64,000 nucleotides of DNA from the NCBI GenBank assembly GCA_005884575.1, contig VAWW01000009.1:1-64000 (forward strand), given 5' to 3'. This stretch comes from Actinomycetota bacterium. GTDB lineage: Bacteria; Actinomycetota; Thermoleophilia; Gaiellales; Gaiellaceae. Positions 34,160 to 41,782 of the stretch are shown one piece after another. Both the position numbers and the translations under genes were made by a program. A model generated the notes under the pieces. That model saw only the letters and a list, made by a program, of their open reading frames with translations. It ran no database searches and had not been told where the DNA came from. Within the stretch, counting starts at the first letter, position 1. Each line of letters begins with the position of its first letter.

Positions 34160-34600
34160 CTACGAGCTCACGCAGCTGCTGAGACCGAGCTCCTTCGCCA
34201 GCCGGTCGCTGGCTGTGTTGTCCAGCGACGCGCGCTGCGTCGCCGTCTGCACGGCAGGGATCCGACGCGCCTTTGCCGCCGACGCGATCGCCTCGACGTC
34301 CTTCGCGATCCGCCGGTCGGTCGCGAGCCACTGGTCGACGGTGACCTCGTTGTCTTTCGGCGGCTTCAGCGCCTCGAGCTTCGCGAGCGCCTCCCGGTAC
34401 TGGGCGAGCACGCGCCGCGCGTACGTCTCGATCTCGGTCACGCTTTGGGGTTTCGCGAGCTTCTTGACCTTCGCGTCGTAGCCCGCGCAGATCGTATTCG
34501 CGCGCTTCACGTACTCGCCGTGCGACAGGCGCGAGCTTCCGCAGGCCGCGAGCAGGGAGACCACCGCGAAGGTCGTAATCGTCACCGTCGCAACGCGCAC
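34160..34600 (-). CDS. Putative lipoprotein
   Basis: 146 residues. The N-terminus VATVTITTFAVVSLLAACGSS has a type II signal with lipobox LAAC. The mature part is helical (YVKRANTICAGYDAKVKKL, then YREALAKLEALKPPKDN) with two more cysteines. This resembles small actinobacterial lipoproteins of unknown function. Probably anchored on the outer face of the membrane. Confidence 0.75.
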   Translation of the reverse strand: MRVATVTITTFAVVSLLAACGSSRLSHGEYVKRANTICAGYDAKVKKLAKPQSVTEIETYARRVLAQYREALAKLEALKPPKDNEVTVDQWLATDRRIAKDVEAIASAAKARRIPAVQTATQRASLDNTASDRLAKELGLSSCVSS

Positions 34601-34606
34601 GGAACC

Positions 34607-34616
34607 CTTTTACACT
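34607..34616. promoter_or_regulatory. Divergent promoter, lipoprotein and DUF4389 genes
   Basis: Rightward -10 TACACT (34611-34616) is 8 nt before ATG 34625. A weaker leftward box TAAAAG (minus strand, 34607-34612) is 6 nt before GTG 34600. They share TA, as in the two other divergent promoters of the window. Confidence 0.45.
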
Positions 34617-34624
34617 CCGCCCCG

Positions 34625-35194
34625 ATGGATCATCCCGTCCAACTCGTCGTCGAGGACGACCTCGAGCGCAACCGCCTCACGGTCTTCTTCCGGCTGCTGC
34701 TCGCGATTCCCCATCTGATCTGGCTGACCCTCTGGAACGTCGCGGCGATCGTCGTAGGCATCGTCAACTGGGTTGCGACGCTCATCACCGGCCGCCCACC
34801 CACGGGACTCCACCGCTTCCTCGAGCGCTTCACGCGCTACCAGGTGCACGTCTACGCGTACCTGACCTTCGTCGCCGATCCATACCCGCCGTTCCTCGGC
34901 CAGGAGGGCTCGTACCCGGTCGATCTCCGGGTTCCGCCGCCTGCGGAGCAGAACCGGTGGACGGTGTTCTTCCGAGCGATCCTCTGGATCCCGGCCGGAC
35001 TTCTCGGATACGTCCTCAATTACCTCTCCGAGCTGCTCGCGGTCTTCGCGTGGTTCGTCTGTCTCGCGCTCGGGCGGATGCCCGAGGGGATGCGCAACCT
35101 GCAGGCGTTCACCCTGCGCTACCACGCACAGGCGCAGGCGTACCTGTTCCTGCTGACCGACCGCTATCCGAGCCTGAACGTCGGGCTCACCTAG
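34625..35194 (+). CDS. DUF4389 membrane protein
   Basis: 189 residues from a leaderless ATG. Two repeats, each with an NRLTVFFRLLLAIPHLIWL-type segment (second copy NRWTVFFRAILWIPAGLLG), form two membrane hairpins. RFTRYQVHVYAYLTFVADPYPPF and LRYHAQAQAYLFLLTDRYPS are the conserved DUF4389 blocks. Function unknown. Its last 8 bases overlap the convergent selenoprotein gene. Confidence 0.85.
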   Translation: MDHPVQLVVEDDLERNRLTVFFRLLLAIPHLIWLTLWNVAAIVVGIVNWVATLITGRPPTGLHRFLERFTRYQVHVYAYLTFVADPYPPFLGQEGSYPVDLRVPPPAEQNRWTVFFRAILWIPAGLLGYVLNYLSELLAVFAWFVCLALGRMPEGMRNLQAFTLRYHAQAQAYLFLLTDRYPSLNVGLT

Positions 35195-35408
35195 CGCGCA
35201 GCCTGTCGAGGATCTCGGCTTCCTCGGGGAAGCGCTGCTCCTCGTGCTTCGAGAAGAGGACGTCGCCGTCCGACAGCACCGTGAACTCGCCGGTGCTGCC
35301 GGGCTCGATCGTCGCCTCGACGCCGAGGGAGTCGCGAACTGCGGCCGCGAGACTCGCGGCCCGTTTCTCGTAGCCTCAGGAGGAGCAGTAGCGGATCAGC
35401 AGCGCCAT
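35187..35408 (-). CDS. SelW/SelT/Rdx-family protein with in-frame TGA (probable selenoprotein)
   Basis: From ATG 35408 the frame reads MALLIRYCSS, then TGA (35376-35378), then GYEKRAASLAAAVRDSL and on to a TGA stop at 35187-35189: 73 residues with U11. The C-x-x-U in YCSSUGY is the redox motif of selenoprotein W and related Rdx proteins, where Cys homologues have CxxC. The C-terminal part GEFTVLSDGDVLFSKHEEQR plus FPEEAEIL matches the conserved Rdx G-x-F-x-V...DG...S...RFPE pattern, so the frame is real on both sides of the TGA. A strong hairpin follows the codon. Rdx proteins are small thioredoxin-like reductases. Without Sec insertion only a 10-residue peptide would be made. Confidence 0.85.
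35343..35361 (-). promoter_or_regulatory. Candidate bacterial SECIS hairpin in the SelW-like gene
   Basis: On the minus strand, 14 nt after the in-frame TGA, GGCCGCGA-GTC-TCGCGGCC forms a perfect 8-bp stem with a 3-nt loop. Bacterial SECIS elements are hairpins at about this distance inside the coding sequence, with a G/U-containing apex that binds SelB. The loop here is smaller than in E. coli fdhF, so the assignment is tentative. Confidence 0.5.
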
Positions 35409-35496
35409 GCCAAGAGCCTACCTTCCGATGTCAGGCGAGAGCTCCTCCCTCGATCGGGTGGTGGCGGTTTGGCCGTTCATCGGGCACTCTGGAGTC

Positions 35497-36183: not shown

Positions 36184-37482
36184 ATGGAGCGCGACGACAC
36201 GCTGCTGCCGCTTACCGGCGCGGATACCGACTACGACCCGCTGGTCGAGCGAACGGTGCAGTCCCGCTTCGTGCTCATCGGCGAGGCATCCCACGGTACG
36301 CACGAGTTCTACCGCGAGCGCGCCGAGATCACGAAGCGGCTGATCGCCGAGCAGCGATTCACCGCAGTTGCCGTCGAGGGCGACTGGCCCGACGCCTACC
36401 GCGTCAACCGCTTCGTGCGCGGTGAGAGCGACGACGAGTTCGCGGAGGAGGCGCTCGAGGACTTCCGTCGATTCCCCTCCTGGATGTGGCGGAACACCGA
36501 CGTCGTCGACTTCGTGACCTGGCTGCGCGAATGGAACGACGCGCTGCCCGCCGACGCGGCGAAGGTCGGCTTCTACGGACTCGATCTCTACAGCCTTCAC
36601 ACCTCGATCGAGGCGGTCGTCGAGTATCTCGACGAGGCCGATCCCGACGCGGCGGCGCGTGCGCGCGAACGGTACGCCTGCTTCGATCACTTCGGCCCCG
36701 ACCCGCAGGTCTACGGTTACGAGGCAGGGATCGGCGGCGCCGAGTCCTGCGAGCGGCAGGTTGTCGAGCAGCTCGTCGAGCTCCGGAACAAGGCGGCCGA
36801 GCTCGCGAGCCGCGATGGCCGGATCGCCGTCGACGCCCACTTCTATGCCGAGCAGAATGCCCGGCTCGTCGCCGACGCCGAGCGGTACTACCGCTCCGTC
36901 TTCCGCGGCGGCGTCGAGAGCTGGAACCTCCGCGACACACACATGGCTGAGACGCTCGAAGCCCTGGCAGGGCACCTCGAGCGCACATCGGGCGCGGCGA
37001 CCAAGGCCGTCGTCTGGGCGCACAACTCCCACGTCGGCGATGCGCGCGCGACTCAGCTCGGAGAGGCGGGAGAGCTCAACATCGGCCGGCTCGTCCGCGA
37101 GCGACACGGCCGCGACGCGTTCGTCGTCGGCTTCTCGACGTACACCGGCACCGTCACCGCGGCCTCCGACTGGGGCCGCCCGGCCGAGCGCAAGCACGTC
37201 CGTCGCGCCCTCGAGGGCAGCTGGGAGCAGCTCTTCCACGGAACGGGCCTCCCGCGGTTCCTGCTCGTGCCCGCGGGCCTGCGCGGACGGAGGCTCGAGC
37301 GCGCGATCGGTGTGATCTACCGGCCCGAGACCGAGCGGCTCTCGCACTATTTCGAGGCCCGGCTCGCCGATCAGTTCGACGCCCTAATCCATCTCGACGA
37401 GACGCGTGCCGTCGAGCCGCTGGAGCGCACGAGCGAGTGGGAGGTCGGCGAGCTCCCCGAGACCTATCCTTGGGCGGTGTGA
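36184..37482 (+). CDS. Erythromycin esterase family protein
   Basis: 432 residues, the usual size of the EreA/EreB superfamily. Conserved blocks: VLIGEASHGTHEFYRERAEI with the catalytic Glu/His pair, AVAVEGDWPDAYRVNRFV, PSWMWRNTDVVDFVTWLREWN, and KAVVWAHNSHVGDARATQ with the His used as general base. Superfamily members hydrolyse esters in a metal-independent way; most chromosomal copies are of unknown substrate, and macrolide resistance should not be assumed. It overlaps the following small membrane protein gene by one base. Confidence 0.88.
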   Translation: MERDDTLLPLTGADTDYDPLVERTVQSRFVLIGEASHGTHEFYRERAEITKRLIAEQRFTAVAVEGDWPDAYRVNRFVRGESDDEFAEEALEDFRRFPSWMWRNTDVVDFVTWLREWNDALPADAAKVGFYGLDLYSLHTSIEAVVEYLDEADPDAAARARERYACFDHFGPDPQVYGYEAGIGGAESCERQVVEQLVELRNKAAELASRDGRIAVDAHFYAEQNARLVADAERYYRSVFRGGVESWNLRDTHMAETLEALAGHLERTSGAATKAVVWAHNSHVGDARATQLGEAGELNIGRLVRERHGRDAFVVGFSTYTGTVTAASDWGRPAERKHVRRALEGSWEQLFHGTGLPRFLLVPAGLRGRRLERAIGVIYRPETERLSHYFEARLADQFDALIHLDETRAVEPLERTSEWEVGELPETYPWAV

Positions 37483-39488: not shown

Positions 39489-39971
39489 CTAGATCGTCTT
39501 GAACTGCTCGAACGGCTGGCGGCAGCTCGTGCAGTAGCGCAGCGAGCGGCACGGCGTCGGGCCGAAGATGTTCTCGAGCTTCGTTTCCGTCGAGCCGCAG
39601 TACGGGCAGCGGAACGCATCCGTCTGCAACTGCACGAGCCGCGGCGCGGTCGCCTCGCGCGGCGCCGGCGGCGCGAACCCGGCGGCTCGCAGCTTCTCGC
39701 GGCCGACCGCGGTGATCCGGTCGGTTGACCACGAGTCGTCGAGGACGACTTCGATCTCCGGCTCCGCGCCGAGTTCCGCGATCTTCTCTTCGAGCGCGTG
39801 CTTCATCACCTCGAGCGCCGGGCAGCCGAGGAAGGTCGGCGTGAAGCGCACGTGCACCCGCTCGCCGACGTCGACCGACTGGATCACGCCGAGGTCGACG
39901 AGCGAGATCACCGGGATCTCCGGATCGGGGATCTCCGCGAGCGCGTCCCACACGGCTTCGGCGCTCACCAT
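39489..39971 (-). CDS. paaD: PaaD, phenylacetyl-CoA epoxidase accessory protein
   Basis: 160 residues from ATG 39971 (GTG 39968 overlapping the paaC stop is an alternative). AEIPDPEIPVISLVDLGVIQ and VRFTPTFLGCPALEVMKH are the DUF59/SufT-like domain with its conserved Cys. The C-terminus holds a zinc-ribbon-like cysteine set (CPYCGST and RYCTSC). PaaD supports Fe-S or diiron maturation of the PaaABCE epoxidase. Last gene of the paaABCD operon; paaE is not present here. Confidence 0.92.
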   Translation of the reverse strand: MVSAEAVWDALAEIPDPEIPVISLVDLGVIQSVDVGERVHVRFTPTFLGCPALEVMKHALEEKIAELGAEPEIEVVLDDSWSTDRITAVGREKLRAAGFAPPAPREATAPRLVQLQTDAFRCPYCGSTETKLENIFGPTPCRSLRYCTSCRQPFEQFKTI

Positions 39972-40642
39972 TGCGCACCCGTCGGCGCCGAGCGGCGCAC
40001 CTCGGTCATCTCGTCCCACAGCTCGCGCAGCTCCTCGGTGTGCTGCCCTCGCGTCACCGGCTCGACCTCCGGCAAGTCGAACGGCAGCCGCCCGCGCACA
40101 CGCTCCACGAGCTGCAGCCGGAGCTCGCCGTCGAGCACGCCGAGCGCATACGGCCACAGCTCGTCGATCGCCTCGCGCAGCCGCGTCGTTCCCTCCTCCG
40201 TCGCGAGCAGCCGGTCGATCCACATCTCGGCGTGCATGCGGTGGTAGGCCTCCTCGCGGTCGATCTTCGCTGCGAGCCCGGCGACCTCGGGATCGTCCGA
40301 CGCCTTCAGCACCGCGAGCCGGATCTCGTCCGCGGTCTCGTAGAGCCAGTGCCGCGCGATCGTCCGCGCCCACTCGAGCCGCCGCAGCTCGACGAGCGGC
40401 GCGCAGCGGTACTCGTCCGGCGCGCGGTCGAACGCGAGTGCATCCGCGTCGCTGCCGAGCTCGCGCGCGGCGAGCTCGTAGAGCGCGCGCGCGTGACCGA
40501 TCTCGTTCTGCGCGATCGACGAGAACGCGACGTCCTCCTCGAGCAGCGGCGCGATCCCGGTCCACTCGGAGTCGCGCCAGCCGAGGATCAGCTCGTCGTC
40601 GGCGAGCTCGAGCAGGACCTCAACGCGACTCCGCGCGTTCAC
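39965..40642 (-). CDS. paaC: PaaC, structural subunit of phenylacetyl-CoA 1,2-epoxidase
   Basis: 225 residues, four-helix ferritin-like protein. ELILGWRDSEWTGIAPLLEED, AFSSIAQNEIGHARALYELA and KIDREEAYHRMHAEMWIDRL align with PaaC, the non-catalytic partner of PaaA that keeps much of the diiron-site pattern. The GTG start lies 23 bp inside the end of paaB. Confidence 0.93.
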   Translation of the reverse strand: MNARSRVEVLLELADDELILGWRDSEWTGIAPLLEEDVAFSSIAQNEIGHARALYELAARELGSDADALAFDRAPDEYRCAPLVELRRLEWARTIARHWLYETADEIRLAVLKASDDPEVAGLAAKIDREEAYHRMHAEMWIDRLLATEEGTTRLREAIDELWPYALGVLDGELRLQLVERVRGRLPFDLPEVEPVTRGQHTEELRELWDEMTEVRRSAPTGAQW

Positions 40643-40892
40643 GCGCCTCCTTCAGCCGCGCCTTGATCGAGTAGCCGTCCACGCGCCGGTACTTGAGGTC
40701 GAACTCGTCGGCCCAGCCTTCGACCACCGAGAGGTGCTCTCGCGGAACCAGCCACAGCGCTTCCGATTCGCCGCGGCGCCCGTACTGCTCTCGGCCGTAG
40801 ATCTCCGCGAAGCGGAAATCCGGGGCCTCGACCGAGCCGGCGTGCTGGAACGGCTGCCCCTTCCGTTCCTGGCGGAAGACCTCCCAGATCAC
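40620..40892 (-). CDS. paaB: PaaB, small subunit of phenylacetyl-CoA epoxidase
   Basis: 90 residues from GTG 40892, overlapping the paaA stop (GTGA). WEVFRQERKGQPFQHAGSVE and EIYGREQYGRRGESEALWLV match PaaB, which bridges the PaaAC heterodimers. The length matches typical PaaB (about 95). Confidence 0.9.
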   Translation of the reverse strand: MIWEVFRQERKGQPFQHAGSVEAPDFRFAEIYGREQYGRRGESEALWLVPREHLSVVEGWADEFDLKYRRVDGYSIKARLKEARERAESR

Positions 40893-41782
40893 GCCGCTTC
40901 GGCGAGGACAACGGAGCGCACCCACGCCGTCTCGTCATGGTTCAGCCGCCGGAAGCCGAGCCGCTCCTGCGTCTTCGGCCCGTGGCCGGTGACGACGTGG
41001 CGCAGCTCGTCCCAGTCCGGCTCGGTGTACTCCCAGACGCCGTCGTCGCGCTTGCGCAGCGCGGGGTCGGGGATCGTCAGGCCGAGCTCGAGCATCTGCG
41101 GCACGTAGCCGTCGAGGAACTGCTGCCGCGCCTCCTCGTTGCCCTGGCTCTTGATCCGCCACTGGTACATCGGGTCGTCGTCCGCAGGGATCGGGTTGCC
41201 GTGGAACTGCATCAGCGGCGGCCACCAGCGGTTCAGCGCCTCCTGGACGAGCTCGAACTGCTCGGGCGTGCCGGTGACCATCGCGAGGATGACGTCGCGC
41301 CCGTGGAGGATGTGGAACGACTCCTCCCAGCAGATCTTCTTCATGATCCGCGCGTACGGTGCGTACGAGCACTTGAGTAGCGCCTTCTGCGAGATGATCG
41401 CGGCGGCGTCGACGAGCCACGCGATCACGCCGACGTCGCCCCACGTCTTCGTCGGGTAATGGAAGACGTTGTGGAACTTCGACTTGCCGCTGACGAGGTC
41501 GGCCAGGCACTGCTCGCGCGGCTTGCCGAGGTCCTCGACGACGCGGTAGATCAGCTGCGAGTGGCCGACCTCGTCCTGCACCTTCGCCGTCAGCGCGAGC
41601 TTCCGCTGGAGCGTCGGGGCGCGGAGGATCCACTCGCGCTCGGGCAGGACGCCCATCAGCTCGGAGTTGCCATGCATCTCGATGAACTTGACGAGCTTCG
41701 CCCGGTAGTCGTCCGGCATCCAGTCGCCCGTCTCGACCTGGCCGCCCGCCTGGACGTACTCGAGGAACTCCTGGTCGTCCAT
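40889..41782 (-). CDS. paaA: PaaA, catalytic diiron subunit of phenylacetyl-CoA epoxidase
   Basis: 297 residues from ATG 41782 with Shine-Dalgarno GGAAGGGG. Diiron ligands: the Glu/His of KVQDEVGHSQLIYRV and those of KICWEESFHILHGRDVI. VIAWLVDAAAIISQKALLKC and RWWPPLMQFHGNPIPADDDP are conserved in PaaA. With PaaB/C it adds an oxygen across the ring of phenylacetyl-CoA; reduction normally comes from PaaE, absent from this cluster. The PaaG-like isomerase at 33392 would act next. Confidence 0.95.
   Translation of the reverse strand: MDDQEFLEYVQAGGQVETGDWMPDDYRAKLVKFIEMHGNSELMGVLPEREWILRAPTLQRKLALTAKVQDEVGHSQLIYRVVEDLGKPREQCLADLVSGKSKFHNVFHYPTKTWGDVGVIAWLVDAAAIISQKALLKCSYAPYARIMKKICWEESFHILHGRDVILAMVTGTPEQFELVQEALNRWWPPLMQFHGNPIPADDDPMYQWRIKSQGNEEARQQFLDGYVPQMLELGLTIPDPALRKRDDGVWEYTEPDWDELRHVVTGHGPKTQERLGFRRLNHDETAWVRSVVLAEAA

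Follow-up and report, generated by a model that had tools for sequence, protein, structure and literature searches.

A 73-codon gene on the minus strand of the 64,000-nucleotide stretch analysed here (the window) encodes a small protein of the SelW/Rdx family; the gene is real, and its sequence context indicates that an internal UGA is almost certainly read as selenocysteine (Sec). The joint reading, in which an expressed selW gene is translated from a leaderless mRNA, SelB and a SECIS hairpin drive Sec insertion at the UGA, and the product is a redox-active thioredoxin-like protein, is given a probability of roughly 96%. The window comes from contig C11 of a draft, Gaiellaceae-type metagenome-assembled genome (MAG) of 4.16 Mb in 130 contigs that is 91% complete. 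A SelW selenoprotein had already been proposed in a sequence-only reading of the window, and every genomic check named there supports it, the SECIS hairpin and the probable leaderless start being the parts that had gone unseen. Coordinates of all features are collected in Table 1.

Table 1. Features of the selW locus in the window, and related loci in the same genome and in relatives.
Feature	Position	Strand	Details	Evidence
selW CDS	35187..35408	-	73 codons + TGA stop; CxxU redox motif C8-S-S-U11; product MALLIRYCSSUGYEKRAASLAAAVRDSLGVEATIEPGSTGEFTVLSDGDVLFSKHEEQRFPEEAEILDRLRAR	sequence, Pfam, AlphaFold2/Foldseek
selW start codon ATG	35408-35406	-		
In-frame TGA, predicted selenocysteine codon (Sec11)	35376..35378	-		sequence; TGA at same place in relatives
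selW terminating TGA	35189-35187	-		
Predicted bacterial SECIS hairpin	35343..35361	-	GGCCGCG-AGUCU-CGCGGCC	fold, relatives, covariation, codon bias
Probable -10 box	35415..35420	-	TAGGCT, 6 nt before ATG	TANNNT in relatives
paa genes near selW	39489-41782	-	also in relatives L025, L029, L033, L042, L077, L117	
Y-C-V-P-U SelW subfamily	loci L160, L162, L163, L165-L168, L170-L172, L174-L177			
Formate dehydrogenase alpha genes with in-frame TGA	contigs C73 (L124) and C4 (L126)			

The frame has TGA as codon 11 within the motif Y-C-S-S-U-G-Y, and the coordinates, strand and codon number that had been claimed for it are exact. The further claim that both sides of the TGA are coding is borne out by the Pfam Rdx family (PF10262), which matches the whole frame with an E-value of 2e-17 and the 62 codons 3' of the TGA, taken alone, with an E-value of 3.8e-11. 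The proposed family membership was likewise confirmed, with 63.6 bits against a curated Pfam score of 22.6, and the NCBIfam model TIGR02174 gives 53.6 bits against a cut-off of 34.2, which is passed with either the whole frame or the post-TGA part. As judged from the sequence, this match to the Rdx family is far beyond chance. The score against the NF041051 equivalog (Campylobacter-type SelW) is 70.2 bits, below its cut-off of 88. A genome-wide search found no second SelW homologue, the window gene being the only one. Sequence matches among solved Rdx relatives in the PDB are 2ljk, 2oka, 3dex and 2obk, and the AlphaFold2 model (pLDDT 95.9) has the SelW thioredoxin-like fold, for which Foldseek returned the SelW-related crystal structures 2fa8, 2ojl and 2p0g at a TM of about 0.9, with mouse SelW and thioredoxins matching more weakly. 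In this predicted structure C8-S-S-U11 lies directly after strand 3-7, the placement of CxxU/CxxC motifs, which follow the first strand of the thioredoxin-like fold.

The machinery for Sec insertion, on whose presence in the genome the sequence-only reading had staked its proposal, is complete: selA (516 bits), selB (329 bits) and selD (335 bits) all score above their curated cut-offs, and the tRNA-Sec has the anticodon TCA. The tRNA-Sec gene lies at C26:2061-2149, about 12 kb from selA and selB on the same contig, with selD on contig C101; the latter has the motif ...SGGCAAK, which is taken as that of the Cys form of SelD. The top Rfam hit for tRNA-Sec, on contig C82, was rejected as a tRNA-Ser by ARAGORN, and the true tRNA-Sec is therefore the one on C26. 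Two formate dehydrogenase alpha genes also have TGA in the place where Sec is usual (NRT-U-HAPSVVGL and ARI-U-HSSTVPGL), so that, together with selW, the genome would encode at least three selenoproteins. Towards its end the formate dehydrogenase match on C73 continues in a second frame, owing to a frameshift or an assembly error.

SelW is found in 73 of the 399 genomes of the class, and in 71 of these 73 a TGA lies inside the match, with the CxxU position seen directly in those class loci that were read. TGA at the same position also occurs in homologues from Acidobacteriota, Myxococcota/Deltaproteobacteria and Gemmatimonadota. The features by which a bacterial selenoprotein gene is recognised, namely an in-frame UGA, coding sequence on both sides of it and conservation in relatives, are all present. 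Across the phylum, other families have TGA forms too, and several families have forms lacking a stop. The presence of SelW is associated with that of selA, found in 56 of 71 SelW genomes versus 136 of 328 others (Fisher p 6e-9, a value that overstates independence as the genomes are related), and in 23 of 26 SelW genomes that are at least 90% complete. The 15 of 71 SelW genomes in which a strong selA match is absent are mostly incomplete MAGs, three being at least 90% complete. The class also has a second subfamily of SelW, with the motif Y-C-V-P-U and SECIS stem variants of its own, and both forms occur together in some genomes (G075, G195 and G305). In a protein tree built from few columns, the window SelW groups with Acidobacteriota and Myxococcota forms (98/97) in a group of 14 that has a common one-codon-shorter spacing, a placement that could reflect an old transfer or a paralogue.

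The predicted SECIS hairpin downstream of the UGA provides the strongest independent evidence that Sec is inserted. Its 7-bp stem pairs positions 35361-35355 with 35349-35343 and closes a 5-nt loop, AGUCU, at 35354-35350; the spacing from the UGA is 21 nt in the window and 24 nt in most relatives. A published model for bacterial SECIS elements has a loop of 3-9 nt with G in the first two loop positions and a spacing of 16-37 nt (PMC13188914), and the window hairpin agrees with it in its 7 bp, AGUCU loop and 21 nt. Folding of the window sequence by itself gives a weak z-score (-1.1), which is no surprise at high GC content; it is the comparative evidence that counts. In an alignment of 74 distinct sequences from the class, window included, which were collected by protein similarity and their hairpins centred on a conserved Ser/Gly/Arg codon, the seven pairs form in 71-74 sequences and pairs 8 and 9 in only 1-3, and the loop reads [AG]GUCU in 69. 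Over 38 distinct sequences, 96.2% of cells are paired, with 25 double changes, and the covariation score is 0.365 versus 0.162 +/- 0.019 after shuffling, a value reached by 0 of 500 shuffles. Codon usage points the same way in a set of 30 loci of the class whose proteins are about 50% identical to that of the window: Ser stands at the centre of the hairpin in 28 of these relatives and is encoded by AGT every time, although AGT makes up 2% of the Ser codons in the rest of these genes, and the flanking codons are GCG before and CTC after in 30 of 30 loci. The bases of the putative SECIS are, on this comparison, held beyond the need of the protein.

A protein search of genome contigs with the window sequence as single query returned no match, and the SECIS string was therefore used as query; plasmids, when searched, gave no match. 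The exact 19-mer was found in 64 stretches, 39 of them inside SelW genes. Besides Gaiellaceae and Thermoleophilia MAGs, which point to the probable placement of the window genome, these genes include ones from Acidobacteriota, Myxococcota/Deltaproteobacteria and one Gemmatimonadota record, a set that, being picked by the string itself, shows sharing and gives no frequency. The remaining 25 stretches lack a SelW frame by the filter used; most of them are in GC-rich genomes and have the look of palindromes that arose by chance, and a few, located at contig ends, may be truncated genes.

Some UGA readthrough occurs in all bacteria, and near-cognate suppression could in principle place a residue other than Sec at codon 11; against this stand the tRNA-Sec, selB and the covarying SECIS, together with the co-occurrence of SelW and selA, which make this alternative very improbable. 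A sequencing or assembly error that turned a true TGC or TGT into TGA, and an ordinary CxxC Rdx protein into an apparent selenoprotein, would need a single base only, in a draft assembly of many contigs. The TGA at the same position in nearly all class homologues, from independent assemblies, shows that it is not a sequencing error, and with the conserved SECIS nucleotides behind it leaves such an explanation next to no credence. That SelW was recently broken by a nonsense mutation is the reading towards which annotation pipelines tend for genes with an in-frame TGA, but it is scarcely credible here, given an intact and conserved post-TGA sequence, a TGA common to the family and the presence of both the Sec machinery and the SECIS.

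The start of selW has its own signature. No Shine-Dalgarno sequence was found upstream of the window gene, and a TANNNT box stands 6 nt before its ATG; its mRNA is therefore probably leaderless, with transcription starting at the ATG or directly beside it. The same box begins 12-14 nt 5' of the start codon in 25 of 30 class loci (0.5 expected from shuffles). Shine-Dalgarno-like strings, present in only three of the 30, occur in 11 of 12 SelW loci from other phyla, none of which has the box. Among long ORFs across the window, 22 have TANNNT at a spacing of 6-8 nt versus 0-2 at each other spacing tested, which suggests that leaderless transcripts are a common feature of the genome. The portions of the literature covered by our search contained no bacterial case of a leaderless selenoprotein mRNA.

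selW and a DUF4389 gene (34445-35194, plus strand) converge, their 3' ends overlapping by 8 bases, and on the opposite side of selW a plus-strand ORF starts at 35407. A gene of the erythromycin esterase family (PF05139, E 5e-132), which includes resistance enzymes, lies at 36184-37482 on the plus strand. About 4.1 kb upstream of selW, the minus strand of the window also carries paaD and paaA/paaC-like genes. Of the 32 class-type loci for which 1.2 kb or more of upstream sequence was available, 15 have paaD upstream of selW and on its strand, at a distance of 29-2784 nt, and so does one further locus with a shorter flank. This proximity may be explained by shared descent, a functional link being a hypothesis only. 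It is unlikely, though conceivable, that the Gaiellaceae SelW, made from a leaderless mRNA, is a dedicated redox partner of phenylacetyl-CoA epoxidase that maintains PaaD or the di-iron epoxidase in a reduced state, or repairs it, and that its gene lies near paaD for that role.

Returning to Sec insertion by SelB as the preferred reading, we infer both the transcription of selW and Sec incorporation in this organism from its genome. A leaderless mRNA would start at or next to the AUG at 35408, and the ribosome would meet the UGA at codon 11, where SelB carrying Sec-tRNA-Sec(UCA) would bind the hairpin about 21 nt downstream and selenocysteine would be inserted. The 73-residue product would fold as a small thioredoxin-like protein whose Cys8-x-x-Sec11 pair could cycle between reduced and selenenylsulfide forms, which would make SelW a thiol/selenol oxidoreductase or redox relay; this chemistry of the CxxU pair we infer from the family.

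The window gene adds to an already known family and is not a new kind. New are the near-invariant SECIS common to several phyla, a start that is probably leaderless and the frequent proximity of paaD. An actinobacterial clade, many members of which are known from MAGs only, joins the SelW-making organisms, and with genes that are routinely missed by gene finders and easily lost in annotation, a single 19-base SECIS string that finds SelW genes in several phyla offers a simple annotation route. If the mRNA is leaderless with Sec at codon 11, it would also offer a compact means of examining how SelB-dependent decoding works immediately after initiation.

Mouse SelW (2npb) and the bacterial structures 2fa8, 2ojl, 2p0g, 2obk, 3dex and 2oka share the fold predicted for the window SelW, 2oka aligning with Cys at the position of Sec; mammalian SelW uses a SECIS in the 3' UTR. 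SelW-like selenoproteins were described in bacteria in 2005-2006, in the Sargasso Sea selenoproteome (PMC1088965) and by Zhang et al. 2006 (PMC1794560), and appear again in a 2026 catalogue and review (PMC13188914); like the window gene they are PF10262 proteins with CxxU from Sec-decoding bacteria, whereas the SECIS of the window type is almost identical in nucleotides across phyla. Cys forms of SelW are rare in Sec-decoding organisms, and the SelW-bearing entry under Actinobacteria in the 2006 survey is Symbiobacterium (PMC1794560); a report of SelW from Gaiellaceae or Thermoleophilia was not found in the literature searched. In Epsilonproteobacteria, where SelW genes were completely missed in annotation, the common SECIS hairpin has 5/6 bp, an invariant loop G and covariation support (PMC4607533), whereas the stem of the window type has 7 bp and is GC-rich, with its own conserved loop. 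A further parallel is the Campylobacter jejuni SelW (CJnc60), also an unannotated small ORF with UGA recoding, whose full-length translation was confirmed by Ribo-seq and proteomics (PMC11955535); it differs in belonging to another phylum, and the leaderless-type start is a feature of the window gene.
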